The notes under the pieces are model-generated. The model ran no database searches and was not told the origin of the DNA. It saw only the letters and a program-made list of their open reading frames with translations. The position numbers and the translations under genes were made by a program. 64,000 nucleotides of DNA from Sulfuracidifex tepidarius. Its GTDB lineage: Archaea > Thermoproteota > Thermoprotei_A > Sulfolobales > Sulfolobaceae. Positions 34,286 through 42,417 of this stretch are shown piece after piece. The DNA lies in NCBI RefSeq assembly GCF_008326425.1, contig NZ_AP018929.1, positions 696,875 through 760,874 of the forward strand, written 5' to 3'. The stretch's first letter is position 1. Each line of letters begins with the position of its first letter.

Positions 34286-37200
34286 ATGAGAAAGGCTCTC
34301 CTCCTCTTATTCTTCCTATTTTTCCTGCCTCCTCTAGTTACAGTCATCTACGTTTCCGCCTCGCAAGGGACATACAACTTCGGTTCCGACCCTGCGGTGG
34401 GGATTTCCGACAACGGAGTAGTGTGTACTCCTTCAGGCGAGAGGACGTACTCCTTCACCACTCGCGCCGTGAAAGGCGAGTTCACCTTCTATGGGGGTCA
34501 GTTCTTCTCAGGCCCTCCGGTAAACTCCCCGTCTTTCTCGGTACAGTTGAACGCGCAGCTCTTCACTGGTCATCAGGTTTACTGGGCCCAGGACGTTGCG
34601 CTGGTCAAGTCCTCCGGTTCGGCTTACGTCGTAGTTGCGGTGGACAACCTCTGGAACTTCACCATATACCATGCAGGCCTTCAAGGCGTGACTGGTAAAG
34701 GGATTGACAACGGTACTTTCTACGAGTACGCTTACCCCACCCGCTTCGTCACACGGGCCCCCTTCACGGTGACAGCTGAGATGGTAGCCATTACACAGGG
34801 AGGTCACCCGGCGGTAGAGATGTTCTTCTCCTTCTCCAACTCAACGTTCTCTACATCTTTCCAATACGATACGGTGGTCATCCCCGTGGGAGGGTATTCG
34901 TTCTTCGGCGTGGGACTCCCCTCCATCTACCCCGACGACATTGAATGGGTAGTCGGAGGAGGAGGGGGTGGGTCTTCCCTCTCTGTCAACGCTTGGAGTG
35001 CGACTATGACGGCGTGGTACCGCCACGACGGGACCTTCTACGTCTTGACGGGGGGATCACCTATCTCCCACGACACGGGAGAGAGCGCTACTGGGATATC
35101 CGAGACGTGGGACAACTCCCAGATGATAGTACAACAGACCTATGGGGGGATTACTTGTTCCCCTCTTTGGACAGCTCAAGCTCATGTAGAGAAGGAGAAG
35201 GACACTCTTCAGATTAACGTTCTACCTGATGGCGCTGAATGGTTAGGGAAGCTGGTGGGACCTGAGGACGAGTGCATCTCGCTGACTGACGGAGGAAGCC
35301 TAAACACGTCTTCCCTACCTCCTGGGCAGTACACACTGACAGTGAACCTACTGGTGGCTGGACAGGAGGTGTACTCGTACTCCTATCCTTTCTCTGTAGG
35401 CAAACCAGCGGAAGTGACGGTCACCTCTCCCTCTGGGTATTTCATAGCTAACGGTGTCGAGTACAAGTCCAACTCCACGTATAACTTCTCCGTGCCGGTC
35501 ACCATAACCTTCCCTCAGGTGAACGTTTCTACAGACGAGAGGTTAGTGTACTCTTACAGCTTGGTGAATAACGAGAAGGAGGAAGAGGTCAGCATTACTT
35601 CAGGCGGGATCTACAACGTGACCGCGGAGTACGTGAAGCAGTACTACGTGAATTTCCCATTCCCTGTAAAGGGTTCTGTGAACGGGGTGAACGGTACGCT
35701 CGACACGGGATGGTACAACGCGGGGGACGAGGTGGAGGTTTTCCCTCAGCTGGTGAACCTAGGTGAGGAGGAAGCCAACGTGTCAGGTTCGTCATTCACT
35801 GTCGAGTCGGGGGAAGCTACCCTGAATTACTATTACCTTTACTACGTCAACTTGTCCCAGGGGACTTACGTGTTCATTGACGGTAACCTGACGTACTTCA
35901 AGTCGGGGTTCCTGAGACAGGGGACATCTTTCAGCGTGGACAGGGTATTTAACGTGAGCATAGGGGAGAGGGAAGTCGTGAGCTCGAACGTCAGTAACGT
36001 CACGGTGATCTCGCCCTTGTTCGTGGAGATCAACCTGAAGGTACAGTACCTAGTGAAGGAGACTCTCCCTAACGGGACTTCGCTGGAGTGGGTTAACTCG
36101 GGAGAGAACATAACCTTCCCCAAGGTCATAGATGAGGGAGAGGAGAGGTACGTGATCAACGGGACAGACTGGTACGTGGTGAAAGCCCCAGAGAACCTTA
36201 GTCCTCCTTACTTGTTGCAGTTCCTGGTTAGAGCTACACTCCCTACCGGGAACGTGACTCAATGGGTAGATAACGGGACGTTGGTGAGGTTCCCAATGAT
36301 TTACGTGAACTCGTCGGTGAGGTGGTACACTAACTCGTCCGTGGTAGTGAACTCGCCCATGAACGTGACCCCTGCGTACGTGTTGCAGTACTTCGTCACG
36401 CTGAAGCTACCTAACGGGACAATAAAGGGGTGGTACGATGACCACTCGACGATCAAGTTCCCAATGATTTACGTGAACTCGTCGGTGAGGTGGTACACTA
36501 ACTCGTCCGTGGTAGTGAACTCGCCCATGAACGTGACCCCTGCGTACGTGTTGCAGTACTTGTTGAACGAAACCCTCCCTAACGGTACGTTGACAAAGTG
36601 GGTGGACAACGGGACGTTGGTGAGGTTCCCAATGATTTACGTGAACTCGTCGGTGAGGTGGTACACTAACTCGTCGGTGTTTGTCAGCTCGCCCATGAAC
36701 GTGACCCCTGCGTACGTGTTGCAGTACTTCGTCACAGTGACCCTGCCTAACGGGACAATAAAGGGGTGGTACGACAATGGAACCAAGATAGCTTTACCCC
36801 ACGTGATTAACGTCAAACAAGGGGTCAGATATGTAACGTCGATCCTTTGTGTGACAATTGAGAAGCCTATTAACTCCTCTCCTCAGTACGTGTTGCAGTA
36901 CTTGTTGAACGAAACCCTCCCTAACGGTACGTTGACAAAGTGGGTGGACAACGGGACGTTGGTGAGGTTCCCAATGATTTACGTGAACTCGTCGGTGAGG
37001 TGGTACACTAACTCGTCGGTGTTTGTCAGCTCGCCCATGAACGTGACCCCTGCGTACGTGTTGCAGTACTTCGTCACAGTGACCCTGCCTAACGGAACTG
37101 AGACGATGTGGGCGGACTACGGTAAGCCTATTAACATCCCGTCCATCATAAACGATACTGACGTCCTCTACGTCCTATCAAGTGAGCCTATAGCTCTCAA

Positions 37201-37504
37201 CCACTCCATAACCCCGGTATACGAGAAGGAGTTTAAGGTATCAATTCAATACCCCAACGGTACAGTCACTCGTTACATACCCGACCACAACTCGTTGAGG
37301 CTAGAGTACAACGCACCGTTCTACGACACCGTGAAGTGGGTAGGAACGTACCAAGTGTCTAACGGAGGGGAAGTGAAGGTGGACTCTCCGATTTACGAGA
37401 AGGCAGTAGTGACGTTTAACTATTTACTCTTGATCCCTATAGTCGTGATCTTGGTCTCGTTCTTATTCTTGATGGTAAGAAAAAGGTCAGCTGATCTTAA
37501 CTGA
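34286..37504 (+). CDS. Thermopsin-like surface protein with tandem repeats
   Basis: 1072 residues, exported. Signal peptide at about 1-27. An N-terminal domain of about 300 residues resembles thermopsin (peptidase family A5): PSFSVQLNAQLF, VYWAQDVALV, VAVDNLWNFTI, DDIEWVVGGGGGG. A beta-rich middle follows, then about eight repeats of 56-58 residues (about 580-1040), with PNGT..WVDNGTLVRFP and VNSSVRWYTNSS, each carrying several N-glycosylation sites. A membrane anchor lies near the C terminus (YLLLIPIVVILVSFLF). Ordinary thermopsins are about 340 residues, so this is a large wall-anchored relative. Protease activity is inferred from family only. Confidence 0.75.
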   Translation: MRKALLLLFFLFFLPPLVTVIYVSASQGTYNFGSDPAVGISDNGVVCTPSGERTYSFTTRAVKGEFTFYGGQFFSGPPVNSPSFSVQLNAQLFTGHQVYWAQDVALVKSSGSAYVVVAVDNLWNFTIYHAGLQGVTGKGIDNGTFYEYAYPTRFVTRAPFTVTAEMVAITQGGHPAVEMFFSFSNSTFSTSFQYDTVVIPVGGYSFFGVGLPSIYPDDIEWVVGGGGGGSSLSVNAWSATMTAWYRHDGTFYVLTGGSPISHDTGESATGISETWDNSQMIVQQTYGGITCSPLWTAQAHVEKEKDTLQINVLPDGAEWLGKLVGPEDECISLTDGGSLNTSSLPPGQYTLTVNLLVAGQEVYSYSYPFSVGKPAEVTVTSPSGYFIANGVEYKSNSTYNFSVPVTITFPQVNVSTDERLVYSYSLVNNEKEEEVSITSGGIYNVTAEYVKQYYVNFPFPVKGSVNGVNGTLDTGWYNAGDEVEVFPQLVNLGEEEANVSGSSFTVESGEATLNYYYLYYVNLSQGTYVFIDGNLTYFKSGFLRQGTSFSVDRVFNVSIGEREVVSSNVSNVTVISPLFVEINLKVQYLVKETLPNGTSLEWVNSGENITFPKVIDEGEERYVINGTDWYVVKAPENLSPPYLLQFLVRATLPTGNVTQWVDNGTLVRFPMIYVNSSVRWYTNSSVVVNSPMNVTPAYVLQYFVTLKLPNGTIKGWYDDHSTIKFPMIYVNSSVRWYTNSSVVVNSPMNVTPAYVLQYLLNETLPNGTLTKWVDNGTLVRFPMIYVNSSVRWYTNSSVFVSSPMNVTPAYVLQYFVTVTLPNGTIKGWYDNGTKIALPHVINVKQGVRYVTSILCVTIEKPINSSPQYVLQYLLNETLPNGTLTKWVDNGTLVRFPMIYVNSSVRWYTNSSVFVSSPMNVTPAYVLQYFVTVTLPNGTETMWADYGKPINIPSIINDTDVLYVLSSEPIALNHSITPVYEKEFKVSIQYPNGTVTRYIPDHNSLRLEYNAPFYDTVKWVGTYQVSNGGEVKVDSPIYEKAVVTFNYLLLIPIVVILVSFLFLMVRKRSADLN
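36232..37090 (+). repeat. Near-identical tandem coding repeats in the surface-protein gene
   Basis: Units of about 170 bases recur. The block starting TTCCCAATGATTTACGTGAA and running through GAACGTGACCCCTGCGTACG occurs four times (about 36288, 36460, 36626, 36968) with almost no changes. The units at 36557-36727 and 36896-37066 are identical, as are their translations. Confidence 0.85.
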
Positions 37505-37526: not shown

Positions 37527-37937
37527 CTAGGGAAGACGTATATGCTTCTTCAAATCAGCGTTGGCGAGACTATAGAGTTTCTTGTCGGTCGTAAGTAACG
37601 TCGTGTTTCTTTCAGACGCCAAATAAAGAAAGGCAGAGTCGTAAAACGGTACCCTTTGATCAACGGCTAAGTTAATTGCTCCATCTATGATGTCTTCAAT
37701 CCTTACTATACTACACAGAGTCTTGATGAAGTTTAGGGTGTTCCGTAACTGTTTCAATATAACAGCCTTGTCCTCATTGAATATGATTATCCTTTTCCAT
37801 GCTACGTTCGAAATTTCCGCCAAGGAAAAATCAAGCGTAATAAGCTCTTCGTCTACTCTTTCCACTATCTTTGTAACCCTTTCCGTAAAGTCGTCTCTAA
37901 AAAAGAGCGAAGCAATAGCCGAGGAGTCAAGTATCAA
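37527..37937 (-). CDS. vapC: VapC-type PIN-domain ribonuclease toxin
   Basis: 136 residues, PIN fold. The first acidic residue is in MILDSSAIASLFF, a conserved Glu in SLAEISNVAWKR, and the C-terminal Asp cluster in VPFYDSAFLYLAS and LLTTDKKLYSL. It cleaves RNA when freed from its antitoxin. Its start overlaps the antitoxin gene by four bases. The Sulfolobales chromosome typically carries many such pairs. Confidence 0.88.
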   Translation of the reverse strand: MILDSSAIASLFFRDDFTERVTKIVERVDEELITLDFSLAEISNVAWKRIIIFNEDKAVILKQLRNTLNFIKTLCSIVRIEDIIDGAINLAVDQRVPFYDSAFLYLASERNTTLLTTDKKLYSLANADLKKHIRLP

Positions 37938-38146
37938 CTTTCCCTATCCTCTCTTATTAGCTCTGCGTTGTCGATATTCTTCATCTTATCTAACTGCTCC
38001 CTACTCTCCTCGAGGTATTTGTTCATTAGCACCTTCCTGGCCCTCTCCTCTATGAATCCGCTTATCTCCTTTTGCCAATCAATGTCTACAGATGCCATCA
38101 ACTCCTTTAATCTCTTTGGGATTCGTATACTATAAACCGTAGACAC
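37934..38146 (-). CDS. vapB: VapB-type antitoxin
   Basis: About 70 residues. The N-terminal strand TVYSIRIPKRLKELM is typical of ribbon-helix-helix antitoxins, followed by a long helical, charged tail that would wrap the PIN toxin. I chose GTG 38146 because a TTATAA box (38170-38175) is 26 bases upstream, which fits leaderless transcription. A start at 38212 would add 22 residues lacking similarity to the family. Confidence 0.75.
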   Translation of the reverse strand: MSTVYSIRIPKRLKELMASVDIDWQKEISGFIEERARKVLMNKYLEESREQLDKMKNIDNAELIREDRES

Positions 38147-38169
38147 AAGAGTTGTTTTACCGCATAGAA

Positions 38170-38175
38170 TTATAA
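38170..38175 (-). promoter_or_regulatory. TATA box for vapBC
   Basis: TTATAA, 26 bases before GTG 38146; it decides the antitoxin start. Confidence 0.5.
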
Positions 38176-38379
38176 GCTTATTCCCTACGTTCCTGGCGAT
38201 CCAGCGATACATACGATTTCTATTTGTTTCTGTAAGATAAGACTAGAAAATTAATCGTGAACCGAAGGAAGATATTGAGGAGAGGCAGGAGGTAATATTA
38301 AGGGGGAGTATCCTCATGCAGTCATCTTATTCGAGATGTATCTATAAAATTATATGAAGGTATCTCTGATATACTACGC

Positions 38380-38600
38380 TCCCTAAGGTAGGCTTGGTTC
38401 AAGGGGGTATCCTCATGTGAGGACAGACGGGGTTTACACGACGTTAAGCAGGGTTAGGCTGTAGCCTGCGTCCTCCTGCTCCTGTTGACCGCTTCTGTCC
38501 CTAGCCAGTCTGGACAAGTGGGACTTGAGTAGGAGTTGTAGCTCTCTGCGGTGTGGGTGTGTCTCTTTCCCACCACGTGTAGGTGAAGCGTGGCTTAAGG
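38380..38600. other. GC-rich island in an AT-rich spacer; possible structured RNA or element remnant
   Basis: About 200 bases with clearly higher GC than surrounding spacer and no credible reading frame. It holds the palindrome TCCTCATGTGAGGA, a G-rich/C-rich potential hairpin (GTGTGGG to CCCACCAC) and several GTCC/GGAC pairings. AGGGGG-TATCCTCATG also occurs 80 bases upstream (38304-38320). In thermophiles such islands often mark stable RNAs. It does not match the TnpB element ends seen elsewhere in the window. Confidence 0.4.
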
Positions 38601-38623
38601 AAAACTTAAAACTAAAATATTAA

Positions 38624-39835
38624 ATGTTTAAACTAATGGATAGAGACCTAAACGTTCTATTGATAACTAGAGCCTTGCGTACTTTCGGGATGAGCTACTT
38701 GTCCTTCCTTCTCCCAATATACTTGAGGTCGCTCAAGTTCTCCTATGCTGAAATAGGAATTTACGTTTTGCTTACAACTCTCAGCAGCAGCGTATTGGTG
38801 ATCGTGAGCGGTTTCCTAGGCGACCTATGGAGCAAGAAGTATACCCTCGTCCTCATGTCAGGCCTACCCGTAGTGGCTTACGCCCTCCTCGTGTCTGGCT
38901 TACCTTCATTAGTTTTCCTGTCCTCCCTATTCGGCATAACCATGGGTGGTGGCGGAGGTGGAGCAGGGGGAGGCCCAGTGGCTCCTCTGACTTCCTCAAT
39001 GATAGCTGAGAGGTCCTCAGGCTCCATCAGGACTAAGGTATACTCCTTCATGATGGTCGCTTCCACCATCACTGGAGTTGCCGGGAGCGTCCTCTCATCA
39101 GCAGTCATATCCTTCGTCAGGGACTACTTCGTGGTCCTCTTCGCCCTGTCCTTGATATTGGATCTGGTCAGCACAGTACTCGTCCTCCTGATCAGGGAGA
39201 AGCGCGAGAAAGCCAAGGAGATGAAGGAGGAAAAGAAGGTGATCCCGAGGAGGTCTTTGACGACAATACTCAAGGTCTCATTCGCCGGAGGAGCAGGTAG
39301 CCTGGGGCTCGGGCTGGTCATCCCCTTCATACCGTTATACATGAAACACTTAGGGGCGTCCGACCTGATGGTCTCCGAGGCCTACGATGTGTCCTACGCT
39401 GCCATCGCGTTTGTGACCTTCTTCTCTTACAGGATAGAGAGCGCATTAGGGTCGTTGAATGGGATCGTGGTCCTCAGGGGACTTGGGTCGGCCCTCCTGA
39501 TTGCAATTCCCCTGTTTCCGTCATTCCTTTACGTGGCCCTTATATACGTGGTCAGGACCGCGCTCTACCAAGCTGCCCTTCCGATGAGACAGAACATGAC
39601 CATGGATCTCTACGATGAGAAGGAGAGGTCCAGGGGAGCTAGCATCTCCGGACTTTTCAGGAGGCTACCGTACGGAGTCGGAAGCAGCCTGGGTTCTCTA
39701 GTGATAGCACAAGGGCTATACTTGCTAGACTTCTTCGGGGCAGGGATAGTCTCGCTCCTGGATCCTGTCCTTTACTACTATTTCTTCAAAAAAAGAGAGA
39801 AGAAAGAGCAGGAGGAAGCTAAGGCGTCTAGATAG
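38624..39835 (+). CDS. Major facilitator superfamily transporter
   Basis: 403 residues with about 12 membrane helices in two halves separated by a charged cytoplasmic loop (EKREKAKEMKEEKKV, about residues 195-210). The loop after helix 2 has GFLGDLWSKKYTL, the MFS signature region. An unusual poly-Gly stretch (MGGGGGGAGGG, about 107-117) lies near helix 4. Substrate unknown. CTTAAAAC lies about 20 bases upstream of the ATG. Confidence 0.85.
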   Translation: MFKLMDRDLNVLLITRALRTFGMSYLSFLLPIYLRSLKFSYAEIGIYVLLTTLSSSVLVIVSGFLGDLWSKKYTLVLMSGLPVVAYALLVSGLPSLVFLSSLFGITMGGGGGGAGGGPVAPLTSSMIAERSSGSIRTKVYSFMMVASTITGVAGSVLSSAVISFVRDYFVVLFALSLILDLVSTVLVLLIREKREKAKEMKEEKKVIPRRSLTTILKVSFAGGAGSLGLGLVIPFIPLYMKHLGASDLMVSEAYDVSYAAIAFVTFFSYRIESALGSLNGIVVLRGLGSALLIAIPLFPSFLYVALIYVVRTALYQAALPMRQNMTMDLYDEKERSRGASISGLFRRLPYGVGSSLGSLVIAQGLYLLDFFGAGIVSLLDPVLYYYFFKKREKKEQEEAKASR

Positions 39836-40933: not shown

Positions 40934-41096
40934 CGCTATTTTTTCTGTTCGATTTCCTGAACTTCATTTTATGTACCTTAAACACTTCAAGACACGTCTT
41001 TTTCTCGTTAATAGGAGAAGATTTCTCTCTATGTTTACCGTGAAAGAAAGAGAGGAAAAGTAAAGAGGACGATAATTAAAAATTGGCCTATCATTC

Positions 41097-42417
41097 GTGA
41101 ACTCACCCCGCCCTTACGGACGGGGCTTCCTGATTCACGGCTCCACCTTGCCAGTACCGATACCGGTAGAGGGCGGAACTCCACATCTAAGGGTCGCACC
41201 GACCCCGATCTACGCAAGATGTTCAGGGAGGCGTTGTAATCACGGTCAGTCACCCAACCGCATCGTGGACAGGAGAACACTCTGTCAAGGTTAGGTCTTC
41301 CCTCACGTAACCGCATTTGGCGCAGGTTTTGGACGTGTAGGGTGGGTCCACAAGGAGGAGTGCCTTACCGTGCTTCTCCATCTGGTACTTCAAGACCGTC
41401 TTAAGCTCGCGGAAGGCGACGTCGTGGAGCCTGAGCCTCAACTTCCTGGGGGACTTGTCCACGAGCTCCTTGACTTGTATGTCCTCCATCACGAGGGCGT
41501 AGTTCCTTGCGAAGTGTTTGCCCAGCCTCATGTAGATGTGTCTTTCCTCAGGTTCCTGAGGTGTTCGTATGCCTCGGCTAACTTGACCTTCGCCTTGAAC
41601 CAGTTCTTGGATAGGAACTGCTTCCCGGACAGGATTCGGTGTAGGTGCCTCACCTTCCACAAGGCATTCTCGTAAGGCTTCACGTTGGGGGAAGTACTCC
41701 CCATCGGACGTCATGATGAGGGTCTCGATGCCCACGTCCAGTGCCATGACCTTGTTAACCTTAGGTAGCTTGGGGAACTCGTAATCTACCGCGAAGGAGA
41801 TGTAGACCCTCTCGGAGGGGTCAACTTCACGACCACCCTCTTTACCTTATCGAGGGGGAAGTCCCTGTGCACGAGGACCTTGAAGACTCCCACGTGGGAG
41901 AGGCTCAGCTTCACCAACTTCTTGGGGTGGCCCTCCCTCGCCTCCCTGCTCTTCCCCCTTATTTCCCTTGAACTCAACACCTTCCATCCGCTCTGATAGA
42001 CCAGGGAGTACCATCTGTGGGGCTTCCTCTCCTTGGGGAACCTGGATAGTCCCTTGAAGAACCTCTCCCTAGCCTCGTAGAAGCGATCCGCAACGTTCTG
42101 AGCATGAGAGTGCATTTGTTGATACTCCCCGTCCTGCTTCCTCAGGTCCAAGGCGAGTTGCCTCAACTGGGTTTGATTCAGACCTTTCCCATCTCTTTGG
42201 TAGAAATAGGAGTCTGCCCAACGCAGGGTGTTTTACACCTCACACGCCACCCTCAACTGGGCCTTTAACGCCCTCAACGTTTGCGAATTTGTGTAAGCTC
42301 GAAACCTGAATCCTACGTCAGGCATTAGGAGATTTTTGAAGGGCCGATATTTAAATATGAGGGGGCTATCCATCCCCTCCCTGACGGGAGGGGACTTCCG
42401 CCCCCTTTGAACCCCCC
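41097..42417 (-). mobile_element. IS200/IS605-type TnpB element, type B
   Basis: The left end (about 42345-42417) has the hairpin-forming run GGGGCTATCCATCCCCTCC and TTTAAATAT as promoter. The right end (41097-41170) has hairpin CCCTTACGGACGGGG and terminates GTTCAC on the minus strand. It carries only tnpB, no tnpA. The guide segment of its omega RNA would be the roughly 16-20 bases just outside the right end (about 41077-41096). Its ends are shared by tnpB-less elements at 30129-30468 and 20413-20701. Confidence 0.75.
41100..42325 (-). pseudogene. tnpB: TnpB pseudogene, type B, multiply frameshifted
   Basis: ATG 42325 starts the N-terminal piece (MPDVGFRFRAYTNSQ), broken near 42235. A second piece ([17 protein letters not shown]) runs to about 41800. 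A third contains [13 protein letters not shown] (first RuvC Asp) and, after a double frameshift between about 41690 and 41560, YALVMEDIQVKELV (Glu) and zinc-finger Cys pair CAKCGYV. A last piece has CPRCGWV and [11 protein letters not shown] (third Asp). All catalytic residues survive, but at least four frame changes prevent a full protein. The 3' end overlaps the right-end guide-RNA region. Confidence 0.82.

Follow-up and report, generated by a model that had tools for sequence, protein, structure and literature searches.

What is the GC-rich stretch that interrupts the spacer upstream of an MFS transporter gene of Sulfuracidifex tepidarius: a gene for a structured RNA or the end of a mobile element? 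In the 64,000-nucleotide stretch of DNA analysed here (hereafter, the window), the original prediction had singled out about 200 bases, at 38380-38600, by their GC content, a perfect hairpin and a repeated motif, and had suggested that they may be an undescribed stable RNA or the end of an unknown element. The stretch 38304-38582, on the minus strand, is almost certainly the truncated and decayed 3' end of an insertion sequence of the IS1 family, that is, a molecular fossil. The repeat unit dispersed in the genome is 279 bases long (38304-38582), and the predicted island constitutes its larger part; the feature does lie where it was placed but starts earlier and ends at about 38582. Similarly, the suspected element end is indeed an element end, albeit of a known kind, truncated and decayed rather than novel. 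The features on which the argument draws are the following.

38304-38582, minus strand: decayed IS1-family insertion sequence, 3' end only, defined by DNA homology to three long copies in the same genome and to complete elements elsewhere
38304-38353, unstranded: surviving terminal inverted repeat, aligned without gaps to the 50-base inverted repeat of the complete element L027
38350-38582, minus strand: remains of the C-terminal codons of an IS1-family transposase, delineated by tblastn with the L027 transposase and by base alignment
38309-38318, plus strand: first copy of TATCCTCATG, in the inverted repeat
38342-38349, plus strand: TATA-like CTATAAAA, created by A at 38344; the 16 other alignment rows with a base at this position carry G
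38408-38417, plus strand: second copy of TATCCTCATG, in former transposase codons according to the alignment
38410-38423, unstranded: palindrome TCCTCATGTGAGGA, within former transposase codons
38599-38623, plus strand: probable promoter region of the MFS gene, with a AAACTTAAAA-like box, outside the remnant

Complete relatives of the remnant are found in other genomes. A search with 38300-38585 gave matches in 12 of the 41 genomes, its own included, with no match in the other two genomes of the genus (G001 and G002); a distant blastn search of plasmid and phage collections (E 0.01) gave no match. In several genomes, the outer 50-60 bases matched again in inverted orientation about 1.17 kb from a long match, and the complete relatives measure 1.13-1.17 kb, with inverted repeats of at least 50 bases. 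The element L027, for instance, spans 1174 bp, has 50-base inverted repeats that are 98% complementary and contains one open transposase frame of 316 amino acids, the stop codon of which lies inside the inverted repeat. The 20 loci examined for ends and target duplications represent 17 distinct places, 16 of which have paired ends (1126-1174 bp), L055 having none at the threshold used; a perfect flanking direct repeat of 8-9 bp accompanies 14 of these 16 distinct elements, all except L027 and L069. The three transposases tested, those of L027, L028 and L031, all score above the cut-offs of both the NCBIfam IS1 model (NF033558; 119.9-124.6 bits, cut-off 100) and Pfam DDE_Tnp_IS1 (PF03400; 27.9-44.1, cut-off 24.1). 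With the L027 transposase as query, 15 of the 31 family genomes searched gave matches at E up to 1e-20, that of S. tepidarius among them, and no solved structure was retrieved with this intact transposase at E 0.001. Classical IS1 has a two-frame arrangement, unlike the single transposase frame of the relatives described here. A literature search for the name ‘ISC1173’ in Sulfolobus found no paper, and we therefore claim no element name.

The window copy shares with IS1-family insertion sequences a homologous inverted repeat and homologous C-terminal transposase code, but differs from the complete relatives, with their IS1-type transposases and target duplications, in being truncated, with one end gone and the reading frame broken. 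Not only the corresponding ends but also the opposite ends of four elements match 38304-38353 (blastn), and the former transposase stop codon occupies 38350-38352. The L027 transposase matches the minus strand of the window, with stops, once at 38627-38385 in frame -3 (tblastn, E 1e-10), with a poor alignment of the initial bases past 38582, and once at 38574-38353 in frame -2 (E 2e-4). Across 79 aligned codons, five frameshifting indels, of 1 or 2 bases each, separate the window copy from the L027 gene. The stretch is too broken for a profile model, and its IS1 membership is tied in by the tblastn match at E 1e-10. Accordingly, the statement that the island does not encode protein holds insofar as there is no intact ORF, whereas the minus strand carries the wrecked C-terminus of a transposase. 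When four complete elements and three transposases were compared with the window, no second element end was found beyond 38582 and all other blastn matches had E 0.06 or worse, so that the opposite end is missing, as is the remainder of the transposase gene. With one terminal inverted repeat present and the other missing, the copy is filed as a truncated remnant and not as an intact element; due to the loss of the far end, a target duplication is not demonstrable for it, a point that we counted against the fossil reading. Overall, the remnant is ordinary in kind and real as a feature.

The repeat of TATCCTCATG that had been noticed is also real, although its two copies start 99 bases apart and not 80. 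A second occurrence of GGGGGTATCCTCATG, at about 38402-38417, was considered as a further element end and rejected: it lies within transposase codons, and the matching stretch differs in relatives outside the own genome.

The S. tepidarius genome contains other broken copies. A DNA search with 38260-38620 against its single contig of 2,560,765 bases recovered, besides the window, three copies over about 277 bases with 82-84% identity and two short copies of the outer end, 78 and 80 bases long and 87% and 85% identical, respectively. A further 24-base piece is located at the far end of copy L002, where it forms part of the opposite inverted repeat. The four transposase matches found in this genome at E up to 1e-20 represent two copies, and none of the four is free of stops. 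Inspected by eye, the outer-end copies of about 80 bases (L005 1501-1578 and L006 1501-1580) stop at different points of the transposase code, whereas L003 (approximately 1290-1540) is interrupted near the stopping point of the window copy, with a short transposase-like stretch resuming about 200 bases on.

The manner of divergence differs between intact and decayed copies. The region homologous to the remnant evolves as protein-coding in 14 intact transposase genes, in which the last 77 homologous codons show 1066, 762 and 2378 differences at codon positions 1, 2 and 3, respectively, over 91 pairs. The corresponding counts between the window and the three other long copies of its own genome are 9/10/16, 17/5/20 and 16/9/15; this weaker codon bias is what would be expected if the copies had diverged in part after decay.

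The surroundings of the remnant are informative as well. The minus strand directly upstream encodes a PIN-domain protein (PF01850) and a VapB-type antitoxin (NCBIfam NF050799); this VapBC-type toxin-antitoxin pair (37527-38212, minus strand) sits between the upstream gene and the remnant. The ORF at 34286-37504, on the plus strand, encodes 1072 amino acids with recurring segments of the ‘LPNGT..W.DNGT’ kind and a hydrophobic C-terminal segment, and is partly conserved in G001. The gene downstream is an MFS gene (PF07690); three of the 31 genomes have a match to it at E up to 1e-40, namely, its own, G003 (48% identity) and the congeneric G001 (80-81%). In G001, the MFS gene likewise comes after the end of this upstream gene, with the remnant absent between them; the spacer of about 450 bases shows no similarity to the VapBC genes or the remnant of the window. 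G001 is a draft, 71% complete, and its spacer is not alignable, so that the comparison demonstrates absence of the remnant, not an exact empty site. The G003 locus matches the window in the MFS gene only. Similarity between the window and G001 restarts at 38599, just past the remnant, and includes the AAACTTAAAA-like box, for which a promoter role is probable. We considered this promoter as part of the element and rejected the idea, given that the similarity to the remnant-free G001 begins outside the remnant. Farther downstream, the minus strand of 41035-42166 holds broken ORFs with CxxC motifs, which resemble pieces of a TnpB-type protein.

The history of the locus was probably as follows. 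An IS1-family element, with its transposase gene on the minus strand, inserted into the interval that separates the upstream gene from the MFS transporter gene; its 5' part, with the opposite inverted repeat and some three quarters of the transposase-coding sequence, was then lost; and the remainder decayed via substitutions, indels and stops. We infer this order of insertion, truncation and decay. The copy is unable to move by itself and presumably serves no function today.

Could the dead code nevertheless have been put to use? It is conceivable, but very unlikely, that the remnant is transcribed, yielding a regulatory RNA similar to RNA-257 or an alternative leader or promoter for the MFS gene. 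This possibility draws on the CTATAAAA box, which lies in the inverted repeat and points into the island: the A at 38344 that makes it is unique among the 17 rows with a base at this position, the long own-genome copies having CTGTAAAA there. It also has a published precedent in RNAs that arose from transposase remnants through promoter-creating exchanges (PMC3674436). According to that account, Sulfolobus solfataricus transcribes the RNA-257 paralogues from what is left of the distal part of an ISC1904-type transposase gene; its authors infer that the promoter was made by nucleotide exchanges, and point out that transcription in the parent should be blocked by a G in the fourth position of box A (PMC3674436). 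As described there, those paralogues resemble the window remnant in being intergenic, in deriving from the distal part of a transposase gene and in carrying a substitution that possibly strengthens a promoter. By contrast, they are of ISC1904 type, are transcribed and run sense to the transposase, whereas the window remnant is of IS1 type, is not known to be transcribed and would give an antisense RNA. The parallel is suggestive but turns on one base; a single such transition is expected by chance in a copy that is 16-18% diverged from its nearest relatives. Moreover, the window contains 26 looser TATA-like words (YTWTAAAA), against 11.2 expected, and the MFS gene has a promoter-like box of its own, common to the congener G001. 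The exact CTATAAAA is found three times in the 64 kb, and the plus strand of 38361-38765 contains no run of four or more T. Were the remnant transcribed, a start at about 38370 would lead antisense through the dead transposase code, perhaps into the MFS gene, and the G-to-A change in the box would have given rise to an RNA-257-type regulator or an alternative leader of the transporter.

It is hardly credible that the repeat unit is an IS1-type MITE, a miniature non-autonomous element that moved as a unit. The two short own-genome copies, L005 and L006, share the same outer end, and L003 appears, by eye, to be interrupted close to the stopping point of the window copy, as could be the case for such an element; yet just one inverted repeat is present in the window copy, where a MITE has two nearby inverted ends flanking a short non-coding stretch, its interior is transposase code, and the copies end at different points. 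The Sulfolobus MITEs SMN1 and SM3A, as characterized in PMC3718332, have two inverted ends and are linked with the transposases of ISC1733 and ISC1058. The window fragment is similar to these in being a short ORF-less transposon derivative from the same archaeal group, but unlike them, as they are portrayed there, it has one end and is of IS1-type ancestry.

The properties that had suggested an RNA are at the level of coding DNA or of chance. The GC contrast is real, with 56% at 38400-38599 compared to 36-39% in the 100-base windows covering 38200-38399. However, 3.1% of the 200-base windows in the 64 kb reach 56%, and the 100-base windows of the MFS gene between 38800 and 39749 have 51-59%; hence, the contrast is one of coding-like GC against a spacer. 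What makes the island appear GC-rich is the AT-rich spacer around its former coding DNA. The perfect palindrome, too, is present as predicted, but is not kept in homologues, and stems of its kind, 6 bp with a 2-base loop, are at the level of shuffled sequences: 24 in the window, compared to 15-24 in every one of its 10 shuffled versions. When the island was shuffled 1000 times, 34% of the shuffles reached its number of 6-bp stems with loops of 2-8 bases, and 6.5% had at least one stem of exactly the 6/2 kind; the complementary G/C blocks of the island are at chance level for its composition. Folding energies compared with those of shuffles, with z of +0.27 (plus strand) and -0.87 (minus strand) for 38380-38600 and of -0.65 (plus strand) for 38304-38582, indicate no excess of structure.

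Compensatory changes in homologues, the check named with the original prediction, were assessed in an alignment of 18 rows (A2), one of which, L040, is shorter and has no inverted repeat. The alignment excludes L030 (a frameshifted relative), L055, the loci L048, L053, L056 and L068, which duplicate places already represented, and further G041 copies (L063 and L077), as well as many more matches from the DNA and transposase searches. All six pairs of the palindrome are present in 3 of the 18 rows, namely, the window and two other copies from its own genome, with two to five pairs in the remaining 15. For the hairpin, 67.0% of the cells are paired, compared to 66.0% after shuffling (162 of 500 shuffles as high), with one double-change pair versus 0.6 (300/500), three double-change cells versus 0.7 (4/500) and a covariation score of 0.050 versus 0.030 (7/500); the three cells represent one and the same pair in the window, L002 and L004, all close copies. 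For the fold predicted over 38304-38582, 64.1% are paired versus 63.5% (24/500), with 17 double-change pairs versus 20.2 (485/500), 42 double-change cells versus 34.8 (19/500), 54 further pair types versus 61.1 (500/500) and a covariation score of 0.098 versus 0.093 (50/500). Sliding the partners lowers the percentage paired for the hairpin as well as the whole fold, an effect that a structure derived from a single row produces by itself. These mixed pair counts, obtained from aligned sequences, lend no clear support to a conserved fold, yet offer no proof against one.

No Rfam match was found in the window at the gathering threshold, nor at E up to 1 for 38200-38640, and a tRNA and tmRNA search of the window found none. 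A gene for a stable structured non-coding RNA unrelated to transposons is thus extremely improbable, for the GC contrast with the spacer, the perfect palindrome and some pair-count measures that exceed shuffles are set against homology of the whole stretch to the 3' end of IS1-family elements, the absence of an Rfam match, ordinary folding energy on both strands, a hairpin complete in just 3 of 18 homologues and codon-type evolution in intact copies.

Recognition of the island as a fossil IS1-family 3' end removes one candidate structured RNA from the list and exposes a general trap: decayed insertion sequences retain coding-level GC and chance palindromes once their frames are lost, and such remnants can therefore mimic structured RNA islands in the AT-rich spacers of archaea.
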